Assembly: GCA_015661715.1 (NCBI GenBank)
Contig: DQVN01000046.1
Location: forward strand, 1-13,007
Reading direction: 5' to 3'
Length of the DNA stretch: 13,007 bases
Source of the DNA: Sulfurivirga caldicuralii
GTDB taxonomy: Bacteria; Pseudomonadota; Gammaproteobacteria; Thiomicrospirales; Thiomicrospiraceae
Part shown: piece by piece, positions 7,989-13,007 of the stretch
Layout: every line of letters begins with the position of its first letter
Numbering within the stretch: position 1 is the first letter of the stretch
Notes under the pieces: generated by a model
What the model saw: only the letters and a program-made list of their open reading frames with translations
Database searches by the model: none
Told to the model about the DNA's origin: nothing
Position numbers and translations under genes: made by a program

Positions 7989-9881
7989 ATGCTAATTAAA
8001 AAACCTCACGCAGAAATGCTGCTACAACTGCTTAAAAGCGGCCAAGAACCGGTCTCTTTGGACAAGCTGAATGACACCACATTGCAAGAGCTGCAAGTTC
8101 AAGGCATTGTCACCTTACCCACCCCCACCACAGCACATCTGACCTATGCGGGCAACCTGCTAGCCGGTGTACTGGATGAAGCCATCCAAAAAGGGCTGAC
8201 CAAGCCCGTTGCCGAATGGAAAGAGGGCTACCGCTGGTTGGGTTCTGAAGTCATCGCCATGCTTGATGCGGCCATCACGGCAGAAAAAGTACCCGAAACC
8301 ACCTGGCCGGCCCTGCACGAGCGCGGGCTTGCAGAGGAAGAAAAAGACCCCGACACCAAAGTGGTGAAAAAGGTGGTCAACCAGGCGGGTCAGGCCGTAC
8401 TGGAGTGTTATTTCATGCTGGAGCCTGAGCTGGCCATCAACAAAGAGCTGGCCGAATACATCAAAAAGGCGCCGGAAGGGCCCACTGAAGCCATCCACCT
8501 GCCTGTAGAAGGCAATCAGAAAGAGTTGCTTGAAGCCATGCGCCTGATCGCCTACTCCATACCCAATGGTGAAGTGGTCACCTTTACCGGTTTGGGCCAG
8601 GCGGTCAAGCGTGTGCTGAACATGGGCGTCACCCGCGAGGACGGCGATATTATTACCGCCTCCATCCTGGAAAATGTAGCGCGCGTGGCCGATGACGAAG
8701 AGATCAGCCCGGAAGCCCTGATCGTGCTGGAAGAGTTGAATCTGGTCATCAACGGGGAAACGCTGACGCCTGCAGGTGAAGCGGCACTGGATGCCTGGCG
8801 CATCTACAAGGATCAGGTGGAACAGCCCCTGCGCACCATCGCCCTGTCAGAGCCTGAAGTAGAGCTGCTGCTGACCATCGAGCGGCTACACGAAAAATAC
8901 GCCAACGATCCACACCGCCTGGTCGATCTCAACGAAATTCACCGCGAGCTGGTCGAGCGTCAAATCGCCAAATTTGAAAAGATCGCCGCAGAATACGGCC
9001 GCTACATGGACACCATGCCCAAACGCAAAAGCCGCATTCTCAAGGCGTTTTTAGAAACAAAAGACAAGATGCGCTGGTTTGAAGACAACTTCAACCTGCG
9101 CGAAATGCTCTACGCCCTGGAGGCCTTTAACCTGATCAGCGAATCCGTCAGTCAAAACGGCCATACCATCTTCGAACTGACGCCTTTCGGCAAAGAAGTG
9201 GCCGAAGATCAAAAACAGGCCACCCGCCAGATCAGCTCCACCGGACTGAAAACACTAATGCACGCCAACGAACTGTTTTTGGCGCCCAATATCGAATGGG
9301 TCAAACAGGCACGGGATGAAAAACTGCTGGGCGAATTTGAAGCCAGCCAATCCGGTCGCTTCTATGAAGACCTGGCGGGGCGTATCGAGCGCTTGCCCCT
9401 CATGACCGCGCTGATGGCGGACATCTTCAAAAAAATCGGCAGCAAAGGCACCAGCGTAGATGAGCTGCTGAAGAGCTATACCGACCCTTTACACAAAGAA
9501 GAAGCCCGTTGGGCCCTGGAACAACTGGAAGCCTTCGGTTGGGTCGAAGTGCTGGCCGATGGCAATATTGTTGAAACCCCGGCAGGCGAGCTCATGGACA
9601 TGGCCATAAGCGCTGTGCCCTCCGGCTTTGGCGCTCCACTCAACCCCACCATTTATCGGGTGATCAAAGCCATCTCGCAGGTGGGCACCCTGTATGTGAA
9701 AGAGCGCAAGATTCGCATGCTGCCCAAAAACCTGAAAACGGCCATCAAATACTCAGGCCTCTCCGAAGAAGCATTTGAAAAAGCCTATGTGGCTGCACGG
9801 GAGGCTCATTACCTGGGCAAAAACAGCGTCAATGAAGCCGGTCTGCATATCCTCGAGGCGGTAGAACAGCTCAATCAGTAA
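7989..9881 (+). CDS. 630-aa multi-winged-helix-like protein, probably DUF505
   Basis: I cannot assign a function. The protein is soluble, acidic, mostly helical, without signal peptide or membrane segments. It resembles DUF505 proteins, an uncharacterised prokaryotic family of about 600 residues; this match is from memory. What can be seen is an iterated motif of the form (L/V)Txx(A/F)Gxxx(L/V): LTYAGNLL at 51-58, VNQAGQAVL at about 130-138, LTPAGEAAL at 259-267, LTPFGKEV at 397-404, ETPAGELM at 529-536, VNEAGLHIL at 614-622. In MarR/PadR-like folds such a motif follows the wing, so these may be tandem winged helices, but the central region is longer and may be different. The ATG has AAGGAG six bases upstream. 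The gene stands alone, is divergent from queA, has a possible operator upstream and a strong terminator downstream. Confidence 0.7.
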   Translation: MLIKKPHAEMLLQLLKSGQEPVSLDKLNDTTLQELQVQGIVTLPTPTTAHLTYAGNLLAGVLDEAIQKGLTKPVAEWKEGYRWLGSEVIAMLDAAITAEKVPETTWPALHERGLAEEEKDPDTKVVKKVVNQAGQAVLECYFMLEPELAINKELAEYIKKAPEGPTEAIHLPVEGNQKELLEAMRLIAYSIPNGEVVTFTGLGQAVKRVLNMGVTREDGDIITASILENVARVADDEEISPEALIVLEELNLVINGETLTPAGEAALDAWRIYKDQVEQPLRTIALSEPEVELLLTIERLHEKYANDPHRLVDLNEIHRELVERQIAKFEKIAAEYGRYMDTMPKRKSRILKAFLETKDKMRWFEDNFNLREMLYALEAFNLISESVSQNGHTIFELTPFGKEVAEDQKQATRQISSTGLKTLMHANELFLAPNIEWVKQARDEKLLGEFEASQSGRFYEDLAGRIERLPLMTALMADIFKKIGSKGTSVDELLKSYTDPLHKEEARWALEQLEAFGWVEVLADGNIVETPAGELMDMAISAVPSGFGAPLNPTIYRVIKAISQVGTLYVKERKIRMLPKNLKTAIKYSGLSEEAFEKAYVAAREAHYLGKNSVNEAGLHILEAVEQLNQ

Positions 9882-9903
9882 ACCCCCTCACCCTTCCTTA
9901 ACC

Positions 9904-9925
9904 AGGCGCCTGCGGGCGCCTTTTT
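9904..9925 (+). terminator. Intrinsic terminator of the 630-aa gene
   Basis: Stem AGGCGCC / GGCGCCT (9904-9910 with 9915-9921), tetraloop TGCG, followed directly by TTTTT on +. It lies 22 nt after the stop codon. Confidence 0.9.
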
Positions 9926-9944
9926 AATATCCCACCCATACAAC

Positions 9945-9971
9945 AAAAAAGCCCAGCCAAAACGGCTGGGC
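9945..9971 (-). terminator. Intrinsic terminator at the left end of the CRISPR region
   Basis: Perfect 8-bp stem GCCCAGCC / GGCTGGGC (9951-9958 with 9964-9971), 5-nt loop, followed on the minus strand by six T (9950-9945). It begins 4 nt beyond the outermost degenerate repeat (9976), so it would end minus-strand transcripts running right to left through the array and the inserted genes. It is one argument for minus-strand transcription of the array. Confidence 0.85.
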
Positions 9972-9975
9972 GATC

Positions 9976-10080
9976 GTCTTATCATCTATCTGCGAGGTTA
10001 GGTGTCAAAGCCATCGTCAAAGCGGCGATGGGAGCAGGGTATTGGTCTTAACCCTCTATATGCGAGGTTAGGTGTCAAAG
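9976..10080 (-). CRISPR. Detached end of the CRISPR array: two repeats, one spacer
   Basis: Repeat at 10045-10080 is 36 nt and differs from the main-array consensus by one base (CTATATG instead of CTATCTG). Repeat at 9976-10010 is 35 nt, identical over its right 25 bases and degenerate, with one base lost, over its left part (GTCTTATCATCTATC against GTCTTAACCCTCTATC). They flank a 34-nt spacer at 10011-10044. Degeneration of the outermost repeat is typical of the leader-distal end of a CRISPR array. That makes this the trailer end of the array whose main body begins at 12135, split off by the 2-kb insert. Strand is inferred. Confidence 0.85.
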
Positions 10081-10111
10081 CCTAGCGTGGTGGGGGTTTC
10101 AAGAGTTAATG

Positions 10112-10138
10112 AAATAAAACGCCCCCATAAAGGGGGCG
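10112..10138 (-). terminator. Intrinsic terminator after the membrane-protein gene
   Basis: Perfect 7-bp stem CGCCCCC / GGGGGCG (10120-10126 with 10132-10138), 5-nt loop, followed on the minus strand by TTTTATTT. It lies about 70 nt beyond the stop of the 199-aa gene. The 69 bases between them hold nothing I recognise. Confidence 0.8.
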
Positions 10139-10207
10139 GGAGTTCGAATTGAAGGAATCATCCAAAACTAGTATATATGCGAACGCCCCATATCCGTTGA
10201 GTTATCA

Positions 10208-10807
10208 TCAATACCAGGTATTTCCGGCAGATGAGCTGTAAACATGGGAATCCCACCCATCATCTTTCCGCTTCCTGCCTTCATCCTCCATAGCCTCATC
10301 AATCGCCTGGTTAAGGCTTCCGCCCTCGTCCGGTGATCGATCCAGACTACCGATAGGAAAATTGAGTAATGCGAGTGCAAGCATACCCAAATCATAACCC
10401 CAGTCCGGAATGGTGGGTTCCCGCCCTATCCAAGCCACAAAAAGGAAAAACGCCGCCCAAACGATGATGTTATAACCCAGCACCACAACAAGGATTGGAA
10501 CTGGTTCAAACTCTTTTATTCCCTTAACCTTGTCAGGGAGATGGCGCTGCTTGTGCAGCCCGGCAAGCCGCAGACCGTGAATCCTGGCCATGATCCACGC
10601 AGGCGGCAAAATTATGATTCCCTTAATCACCCAATCCCATGTTTGCAATTGATAGGAAAACACGCCCTCAAGCGTCACGGGCGTGACGGCGATAAGCGTG
10701 ATGTAATACGAGGTGGCGAATAGCGCTGTATACAAGGGCAACAGCAGTATTATGAACAGGCAACCCTTTCTCATTACCTGGCGCAATTTATGATTGCCGT
10801 AAGCCAT
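10208..10807 (-). CDS. 199-aa inner-membrane protein of unknown function
   Basis: Not recognised by family. Four likely membrane segments: about 16-40, 58-76, 103-127 and 137-153, with basic stretches between 2 and 3 (HGLRLAGLHKQRH) and an acidic, polar C-terminal tail of about 45 residues rich in D, E and S. The ATG has GAGGA at good distance (AGAGGACACTATT), and a TTGACA promoter lies just upstream, so it can be expressed without the truncated frame before it. Context: it follows, on the same strand, the tail of a protein that loosely recalls the C-terminal part of conjugation protein TraG. In F-like plasmids and SXT-type elements traG is followed by a small inner-membrane entry-exclusion gene (traS, eex). 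An exclusion-type role is therefore a hypothesis from position, size and topology only; I see no sequence match. Confidence 0.8.
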   Translation of the reverse strand: MAYGNHKLRQVMRKGCLFIILLLPLYTALFATSYYITLIAVTPVTLEGVFSYQLQTWDWVIKGIIILPPAWIMARIHGLRLAGLHKQRHLPDKVKGIKEFEPVPILVVVLGYNIIVWAAFFLFVAWIGREPTIPDWGYDLGMLALALLNFPIGSLDRSPDEGGSLNQAIDEAMEDEGRKRKDDGWDSHVYSSSAGNTWY

Positions 10808-10845
10808 AATAGTGTCCTCTACGATAAAAATCGCTTATGTGTTCG

Positions 10846-10874
10846 ACGCTAGCATATTAGCGCAACCATGTCAA
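10846..10874 (-). promoter_or_regulatory. Sigma-70 promoter for the 199-aa membrane protein
   Basis: Minus strand: -35 TTGACA (perfect, 10874-10869), 17-nt spacer, -10 TAGCGT (10851-10846) preceded by TGC, an extended -10. It lies between the stop at 10890 and the start at 10807. The -10 hexamer is only 3/6, offset by the perfect -35 and the TGn element. Confidence 0.65.
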
Positions 10875-10889
10875 TGCCCTTCGGAGTAT

Positions 10890-12134
10890 CTATTTAAATT
10901 GAGAAGGGTCTCTCGTGGTCAACCTGCTCCGACGTGAATCAGTCACCCGCCGCTTGGACGTATCATTTAACGCTTGCATAATCTGCTCCAACTGATCCGA
11001 ATCATTGCCTGCACTTGGCATCCGGGATTCAGACACAGCGCTTGGCGTTGCGTTCCAGTTAGACCTTTGCAAGTGATCCGGGCCTTGTGTCAATGGCGGC
11101 ATCTGCGGATTTGGCGCAGTCTGCGAGCTCAGTTCATCGTCGCTGTTCCAATGACGCAACGCCAGACTGGACATCTCCTTGATAGCGGCCATTGCCCCTT
11201 CCGTCTCATATACCTGTTTGACTTGTTCTCTTTCGTTATCGTCTAGGGTCGCCCATGCCGCCGCCCCAAATGCCGCTACACCGGCGGCGGTAGCGGCGGC
11301 AGCAGTTGTGCCCGCCACGGCGGCAGCGCCCACCAGCGCCCTGCCCGCCACCGTCAATCCTGCGCCGGACAGAACGGATCGAGCGATAGCAGCCGCTTTA
11401 TCCGGAAATCGCTTGATAGCATTTTCGGCAACGGTCGTCAGACGGCCCAAATCCTTACGGTTAACATTGTCCACGTCAATGACATTGGAGACCGCATGCA
11501 CTGCTAACAATCCGCCAAAAGCATTGGCTAAGCCAGAGTTACTATGGTAAAAATTGTCGAAAGCCTTGCCCCAACCATCGAGCATATTAAAGTCACGCAC
11601 GCCATTGACATGGCCTTCATGAGACTTGAGAGCCGACATAAGATAATCCACATACTGCTCCTGTGCGGGCTTTTCCAATTTTGCAGGTTCATACCCTTCC
11701 GGCGAGGTGAGATTGGTTCCGTTATAAACACTTTGCATACGCTCAAAGCCTCTCCCATCGCCAAGGTTCTGCGGAACCGAATTGCTGAGGTTATTGACAT
11801 TGGGGTCTGCAGATATTTGTCCATTGACGGCATCTCGAACCCCATCTGTGACTTTTGAATTTGCATAATGCGCAGCCTGACTTGCTCGATCGGATAACTG
11901 ATTGAAATTATCCTTATCCACCATATTGCGCTTAGCGCCCAACAATCCGCCAAGCCGAGAAGTGATCTCGGCGGCGGCTTGAGGATTACGTTGAAGCGCC
12001 ACAATCGCTGCCATTCCCATAGATCCGGCCCCGCTCCAATTGTTTTTTTGGGCGATCCTCCGCAGCTCTTCCTGCGGGACACCATATTTATATGCCAGAT
12101 TACGTAAAAAAGCGTCGCCATCTTGCAGATTGCC
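10890..12134 (-). pseudogene. 5'-truncated gene cut at a CRISPR repeat, possibly TraG-like tail
   Basis: The frame is open for 414 codons from the repeat boundary at 12134 to a stop at 10890, with an in-frame TAA inside the repeat itself. The 38 codons before the first ATG (12020) look protein-like, for example AFLRNLAYKYGVPQEELRRI, and continue smoothly into MGMAAIVALQRNPQ. That ATG has no well-placed ribosome-binding site, so I read this as the 3' part of a longer gene. The product is helical and polar, then has an Ala/Gly-rich hydrophobic block (about residues 255-290 of the 414) with glycine-zipper spacing, and ends in a disordered Ser/Pro/Arg-rich tail. The Gln/Ser/Asn-rich helical part vaguely recalls the C-terminal region of conjugative TraG proteins; this is a weak impression. 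It could instead be translated from 12020 as a 376-aa protein. Confidence 0.65.
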
Positions 12135-12810
12135 GTCTTAACCCTCTATCTGCGAGGTTAGGTGTCAAAGGCCTATCTCTATGATGTTCTAGACCGCCTT
12201 GAGGGTCTTAACCCTCTATCTGCGAGGTTAGGTGTCAAAGGGCGAAAAAATGTAATATAAAGCCCGCCCTGCGCGGTCTTAACCCTCTATCTGCGAGGTT
12301 AGGTGTCAAAGGAGTAAGGAGCGATGATATGAAATACTTCAAGATTGTCTTAACCCTCTATCTGCGAGGTTAGGTGTCAAAGGCGATCCGTGCTTGGTGA
12401 TGTGCCTCTCCTCTATCGTCTTAACCCTCTATCTGCGAGGTTAGGTGTCAAAGGTATTTAGCATGGCTAAGCTCCTTTTGTGGGTTGACGGTCTTAACCC
12501 TCTATCTGCGAGGTTAGGTGTCAAAGGATTGGAATTCATGATTACATCAAACCCCTCTAAGGCGTCTTAACCCTCTATATGCGAGGTTAGGTGTCAAAGG
12601 AGCGGATAAGTCGGCTTAATTCTGCCCGTCAATTCGTCTTAACCCTCTATCTGCGAGGTTAGGTGTCAAAGGCATGAAAAAAATCCTTTTTGAAGTCACA
12701 GCCTGTCTTAACCCTCTATCTGCGAGGTTAGGTGTCAAAGGGATCAAAGAAATAGAGAGCGCAATAATTGCGCTGTCTTAACCCTCTATCTGCGAGGTTA
12801 GGTGTCAAAG
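12135..12810 (-). CRISPR. CRISPR array, ten 36-nt repeats and nine spacers
   Basis: Repeats start at 12135, 12205, 12276, 12347, 12418, 12491, 12564, 12636, 12705 and 12775. Each is 36 nt, beginning GTCTTAACCC and ending GTTAGGTGTCAAAG on +. Nine are identical; the one at 12564 has a single C-to-A change. Spacer lengths in order are 34, 35, 35, 35, 37, 37, 36, 33 and 34 nt, all different. Every repeat is followed by G, so a 37-nt repeat is possible. The repeat can fold: TAACCCTC pairs with GAGGTTA with one bulged C and a 7-nt loop. Transcription on the minus strand, leader at right, is inferred from the degenerate far-left repeat, the minus-strand terminator at 9945-9971 and the AT-rich right flank. 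No cas gene is in the window, so the type cannot be assigned. Confidence 0.96.
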
Positions 12811-12961
12811 GGGCTGTGGATAACTCTATTTCCTCAGCACTTTCAACAACTTAGGTATTAAACCTAAGATTTTTTCCAGACGGCCTTTTTCCAATTGAGC
12901 CCCCTAAAAAACAGGGTGGCTCTATAGAAAACTCCCAAAAATATAGATAAAAATCTATTTT
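12811..12961 (-). promoter_or_regulatory. Probable CRISPR leader with three hairpins
   Basis: A 151-bp AT-rich stretch next to the presumed youngest repeat. It contains three inverted repeats: 12850-12868 (7 bp perfect), 12897-12922 (9 bp with one bulged T, GAGCC/GGCTC outer stem) and 12943-12958 (6 bp, all A/T except one pair). A perfect DnaA-box sequence TGTGGATAA lies at 12815-12823. I could not find a convincing minus-strand promoter pointing into the array. Leader function is inferred from position and composition. Confidence 0.5.
12850..12875 (+). terminator. Terminator-like hairpin in the leader, + strand
   Basis: CTTAGGT / ACCTAAG (12850-12856 with 12862-12868), loop ATTAA, then A and six T (12870-12875). 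It is shaped like a weak intrinsic terminator for a short + transcript. There is no gene on + upstream of it except the array read in antisense, so it may close a small RNA, protect the leader from antisense transcription, or be a leader structural element. Confidence 0.45.
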
Positions 12962-12964
12962 TTA
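12941..12964. terminator. Weak AT-rich hairpin with T-runs on both strands
   Basis: ATAGAT / ATCTAT (12943-12948 with 12953-12958), loop AAAA. On + it is followed by TTTTT, on minus by ATTTTT. It lies directly after the stop of the frame entering from the right edge, so it could terminate that gene. The stem is short and AT-rich. Confidence 0.3.
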
Positions 12965-13007
12965 AAGAGCGCTGCTTGATCCTGCAACGACAAAGGCGAT
13001 CACTTCA
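12962..13007 (-). CDS. Possible 3' end of a gene entering from the right edge
   Basis: Fourteen codons (EVIAFVVAGSSSAL) followed by TAA at 12964-12962 on the minus strand, then an AT-rich hairpin. It would point toward the CRISPR leader, the position where cas1/cas2 or another adaptation gene often ends. The fragment is far too short to identify and may be a chance open frame. Confidence 0.25.
   Translation of the reverse strand, partial: EVIAFVVAGSSSAL

Follow-up and report, generated by a model that had tools for sequence, protein, structure and literature searches.

How a CRISPR array comes to hold 2 kb of coding DNA between intact repeats is the question raised by the locus described here. 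The window, i.e. the whole stretch of DNA that was analysed, is the entire 13,007 bp contig C66 of a draft genome (1.51 Mb, 163 contigs, 95.7 % complete), and it contains no N. The original prediction was that one array had been split in two by foreign, non-transposon coding DNA. Our results agree with this in that the locus has one trailer end, one leader end and no recognised transposon, but not in that the two parts derive from one array. The contig is better described as a hybrid in which foreign DNA bridges two arrays than as one split array, with a join formed in the cell and a join formed during assembly being about equally probable.

Repeat family and associated CRISPR system

A pattern scan of the same genome identified arrays of the C66 repeat on three further contigs, C12, C16 and C60. 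The 34 bp core of the repeat matched 35 sites in the genome at up to three mismatches whilst the reversed control pattern matched none, so its occurrence is not due to chance. The C12 array comprises six repeats when its terminal copy is counted, the C16 array five, close to the contig end (one of them carries a mismatch and was listed within a long spacer), and the C60 array 15. At the same threshold of up to three mismatches the repeat was absent from 56 other relatives, and the 35 bp repeat pattern had no exact match in Genome_contigs. The C60 array adjoins the effector and adaptation genes of a type III-B system, comprising Cmr1, Cas10, Cmr3-6, a Csx1-type protein, Cas6, Cas2 and Cas1, and all ten of the C60 proteins given matched models of such systems. 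A gene for a Card1-like CARF nuclease (PF09002, PF23400; L011:13169-14278) is also present on C60, behind the trailer of the array and opposite the type III-B genes. The window displays regular repeats and spacers, a leader end and a degenerate-repeat end, the two ends being on different halves. Judged from its sequence, it carries a putative CRISPR array of the kind served by the type III-B system. Searches for RNA families and tRNA genes within the window found none.

Layout of the two array parts

The right part (12135-12810, minus strand) consists of the ten predicted repeats, all of which were confirmed as intact 36 bp units; they are separated by nine spacers of 33-37 bp. It is followed by a minus-strand leader of the C12 type (12811-12968) and a further 39 bp upstream of the leader (12969-13007), and 197 bp in total remain past the last repeat. 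The left part (9976-10080), also on the minus strand, was likewise as described and includes an intact repeat at 10045-10080, a distal spacer of 34 bp at 10011-10044 that is not common to C16, and a degenerate terminal copy of 35 bp at 9976-10010, which C16 carries in the same degenerate form with one difference. The reading of this copy as an array end was borne out. Outward of it lie a minus-strand hairpin and T run (9944-9971) and then a plus-strand DUF505 gene (7989-9881; Pfam PF04458). The left part has a trailer end only and the right part a leader end only.

A GCCCAGCC/GGCTGGGC hairpin and T run was present directly behind the terminal repeat in all four arrays (window 9944-9971; L009:7038-7070; L010:11866-11900; L011:13020-13055). 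The leaders of the four arrays were 83-96 % alike, and the arrays occupy different intergenic sites. With a common hairpin and similar leaders at different sites, leader, array and terminator together resemble a unit that has been dispersed.

The two flanks belong to different loci

The flanks of one split array should both come from the same locus; those of the window come from two, in a draft genome of more than one strain. On the left, the flank is that of the C16 array. Positions 9853-10010 differ from C16 by two substitutions and one 1 bp indel, and C16 ends in 77 bp that the window matches without a difference. The DUF505 gene, which had one match in the genome, borders the trailer end of the array both here and on C16, where the array has a leader of its own and lies between panC (PF02569) and the DUF505 flank, on which it ends. 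On the right, the leader and the 39 bp beyond it are those of C12, with 96 % identity over all 197 bp (12811-13007). The C16 and C60 leaders matched the window only over the 158 bp nearest the array (83 and 84 %, respectively), and the outermost 39 bp matched only C12 elsewhere in the genome. The alleles at both ends of the window differ from those of C12 and C16, which suggests that more than one strain is present. At the extreme right, 91 bp (12917-13007) are identical to C12 and the contig then breaks off; at the opposite end, the window does not overlap with any other contig on its left.

Comparison with two sister genomes, G001 and G003, placed these loci in context. The C12 array is flanked by genes for a methyltransferase and an ArsR-rhodanese protein, the counterparts of which are neighbours in G001. 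The next gene on C12 encodes, by eye, an AAA-type ATPase, and in G003 its counterpart directly adjoins the methyltransferase gene, whilst the best match to the ArsR-rhodanese gene is located elsewhere. The gene order of C12 is thus backed by both sister genomes, in the case of G003 minus the ArsR-rhodanese gene. In each sister genome, panC and DUF505 were on separate contigs and were followed by other genes; as they are not neighbours there, the C16 array (L010:10107-11994) sits at a changed gene order. The window, having the left flank of one locus and the right flank of the other, conflicts with both C12 and C16.

Repeat lineage changes across the insert

The lineage of the repeats also differs between the left and right of the insert, which again opposes an origin from one array. 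Every repeat to the right, including the leader-adjacent copy, is preceded by an extra C (in the crRNA direction). The extra C was present in 9/9 right repeats compared with 7/21 in C12, C16 and C60 (Fisher p 0.0009), in a count that excluded every leader-adjacent copy as well as the degenerate copies that terminate C12 and C16; one of these two degenerate copies has it and the other does not. Neither of the left repeats has the extra C. The intact left repeat is of the GCATATAG form, as are most C16 and C60 repeats, whilst nine of the ten right repeats are of the GCAGATAG form, that of C12. The remaining right repeat carries GCATATAG (ATATGCG form), so this mark does not hold strictly. On either side of the insert, the adjoining repeats (10045-10080 and 12135-12170) differ from one another by one substitution and the extra C. 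Together, the C16-type left flank, the C12-type right end and the difference in repeats indicate that the identity of the array changes across the insert.

The insert and its genes

The 2,054 bp between the parts (10081-12134) contain no repeat and carry genes, as originally noted, in the form of two minus-strand reading frames; its GC content is 51 % compared with 57 % left of the array. The minus strand is also the direction in which the array is predicted to be transcribed from its leader. The shorter gene (10208-10807) encodes a 199 aa protein that appears membrane-like by eye, and behind it lies a terminator-like hairpin (10120-10138, minus strand). The longer gene (10890-12134) is represented by its 3′ part only, with a frame that stays open right up to the repeat edge. 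Upstream of the first ATG of this ORF, a stretch of 114 bp gave a coding score of 10.9 in its own frame and no more than 0.3 in the other five, computed with the insert's own codon model. As the coding frame runs up to this point, no more than a few codons can separate the right edge of the insert from that of the repeat, and the coding frame supports placing the two edges together.

Neither gene had a significant match in Pfam, NCBIfam or PHROGs. The protein of the long ORF (10890-12020) matched only its own cluster, P0001, among 8000 candidates scored, and a further search that admitted longer proteins gave no match; a second copy in the same genome and a relative in Genome_contigs were likewise sought and not found. 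The cluster P0001 of this truncated ORF names two contigs, one of which has the length of the window at 13,007 bases. Among 369 genomes of the class, two gave matches at E up to 0.001, one being the genome itself and the other G355, where the similarity (34 % identity, residues 240-311) fell in an Ala-rich stretch and was dismissed as composition. The 199 aa protein has a 94 % relative, P0002, on a separate 3,008 bp ENA contig, so similar DNA exists elsewhere. The two proteins are near-identical except for their last ~23 residues, where the differences are clustered (window 10208-10280). A search of 62 genomes of the order at E up to 0.01 returned the genome itself and G004, the latter with 20 % identity, three internal stop codons and an E value of 0.0055, and this match was dismissed.

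The description of the interrupting DNA as non-transposon held, in that neither gene gave a significant match to a transposase or other recognised mobile-element gene in Pfam, NCBIfam or PHROGs. Of the listed inverted repeats of at least 20 nt, none was a terminal inverted repeat at the insert ends. A first reading by eye of the 410 aa frame as a TraG-like conjugation gene was rejected, the best conjugation model being TrbL at E 0.67. TraG_N, which covers only the N-terminal part that is missing from the 410 aa frame, had no match in the genome, and its control matched in E. coli. We also rejected a phage or viral origin, for which no relative was found, and a plasmid origin, for which there was no plasmid protein match. 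A match in plasmid DNA, to 60 bases of a copper ATPase gene at 79.7 %, and a PDB match at E 0.11 were both dismissed as chance. The 33 spacers of the four arrays did not match the insert, the best alignment agreeing at 22/38 bases (shuffle controls for three), and searches of plasmid, viral and contig collections and of the class and order genomes did not find intact element DNA carrying the insert edges.

A proposed bridge of foreign DNA between two arrays

Repeats lie at both edges of the insert and the array identity differs between its two sides, and we therefore sought a single cause for both features. We consider that there is about an even chance that the contig consists of a leader half from a C12 allele and a trailer half from a DUF505/C16 allele, bridged via spacers by 2,054 bp of a foreign element. 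That element would have contributed a single spacer to each array, adjoining the repeat at 12135 in one case and the repeat at 10080 in the other, at positions of about 12099-12134 and 10081-10116, respectively. Element DNA between the two protospacers could then have bridged the arrays via ~35 bp of identity between spacer and protospacer. A path from array to spacer to element to spacer to array would account for both the repeat-bounded insert and the change of identity. Against such a bridge, 0/33 spacers match the insert and an intact element with both edge protospacers was not found. The reciprocal join was not seen either, the repeat being present on four contigs only.

The bridge may have formed in two ways, which we regard as about equally probable. 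It may have arisen by homologous recombination in cells of one strain, accompanied by chromosomal rearrangement, or it may represent a false path taken by the assembler in a mixed-strain sample. The assembler version is opposed by the 77 bp identity between C16 and the window, which may point to a k-mer far above spacer length; a k-mer of 77 fits one overlap, whilst the left end of the window has none and the right end has 91 bp. The cellular version is opposed by the presence of intact C12 and C16 arrays in the same genome and by the large rearrangement that it requires. In its full form, whereby in one strain the spacers of two arrays recombined with the protospacers of an invader, fusing the arrays, rearranging the chromosome and putting a complete invader gene downstream of the leader, oriented as the array is transcribed, we put it forward only tentatively.

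Alternative explanations

An unlikely alternative is that the array beside the DUF505 gene was interrupted by illegitimate insertion, with its leader separately swapped for one of the C12 type and extra-C repeats accumulating thereafter. Between them, the two parts possess a single leader end and a single trailer end, as this would predict, and only 39 bp beyond the leader are specific to C12, so the contig could continue into another locus. However, two independent events with coinciding breakpoints would be required, and the coding frame runs to the repeat edge with no spacer remnant visible on the right.

An assembly error of a plainer kind, whereby contigs from separate strains or replicons were fused at repeats or close to them and not via spacers, is unlikely, and a little more so than the preceding alternative. 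The conflict of the window with both C12 and C16 speaks for it, as do the divergent end alleles, which imply more than one strain. A common repeat alone would be insufficient for such a join, however, given that repeat-free element DNA meets a repeat at both edges.

Integration by Cas1-Cas2 of a 2 kb element fragment at the leader end, in effect as a giant spacer, is very unlikely. The insert does lie between intact repeats and cas1 and cas2 are present in the genome, but the repeats bounding a new spacer should be copies of one another and these differ by the substitution and the extra C noted above. Moreover, all 33 spacers of the four arrays are 32-37 bp in length, and a literature search on unusually long spacers turned up work on algal viruses. 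Lastly, two independent arrays long separated by the insert genes would fit the differing repeat lineages but are highly improbable. The degenerate terminal repeat and trailer hairpin present in the left part and in C12, C16 and C60 are missing from the right part, no leader accompanies the left part, and the gene adjoining the right part is truncated where the repeat begins.

Implications and comparison with known systems

Should the bridging of two arrays by foreign DNA have taken place in the cell, spacers would be more than a memory of past invaders and would also serve as homology anchors for recombination between invader and array, offering a testable route by which arrays could fuse, genes be captured and chromosomes be rearranged. 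Should the join instead be one of assembly, arrays in drafts of mixed populations could seem interrupted because two arrays remember the same invader. The literature searched, outside which most subscription journals fall, yielded no case of two arrays joined over foreign DNA, and we do not claim that none is in print. DeBoy et al. in 2006 reportedly discussed arrays and rearrangement together, in the context of large-scale inversions and CRISPR diversification in Thermotogales; unlike in the window, no foreign bridge is said to have been involved there.

Two further systems bear comparison with the window. In Haloquadratum walsbyi HBSQ001, a MITE has been inserted in a CRISPR spacer (PMC3119063), and as in the window foreign DNA thus lies between two repeats of an array. 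The H. walsbyi MITE resides in a spacer of one array, however, whereas the window has the flanks of two arrays and no transposable element was recognised in it. Recombination between repeats within arrays, as reviewed in PMC8047081, leads to loss and duplication of spacers and resembles the window in that arrays are rearranged at short identical sequences. In the recombination covered by that account the exchange takes place between repeats within one array, whilst in the window it would have joined two arrays, with foreign DNA in the join.
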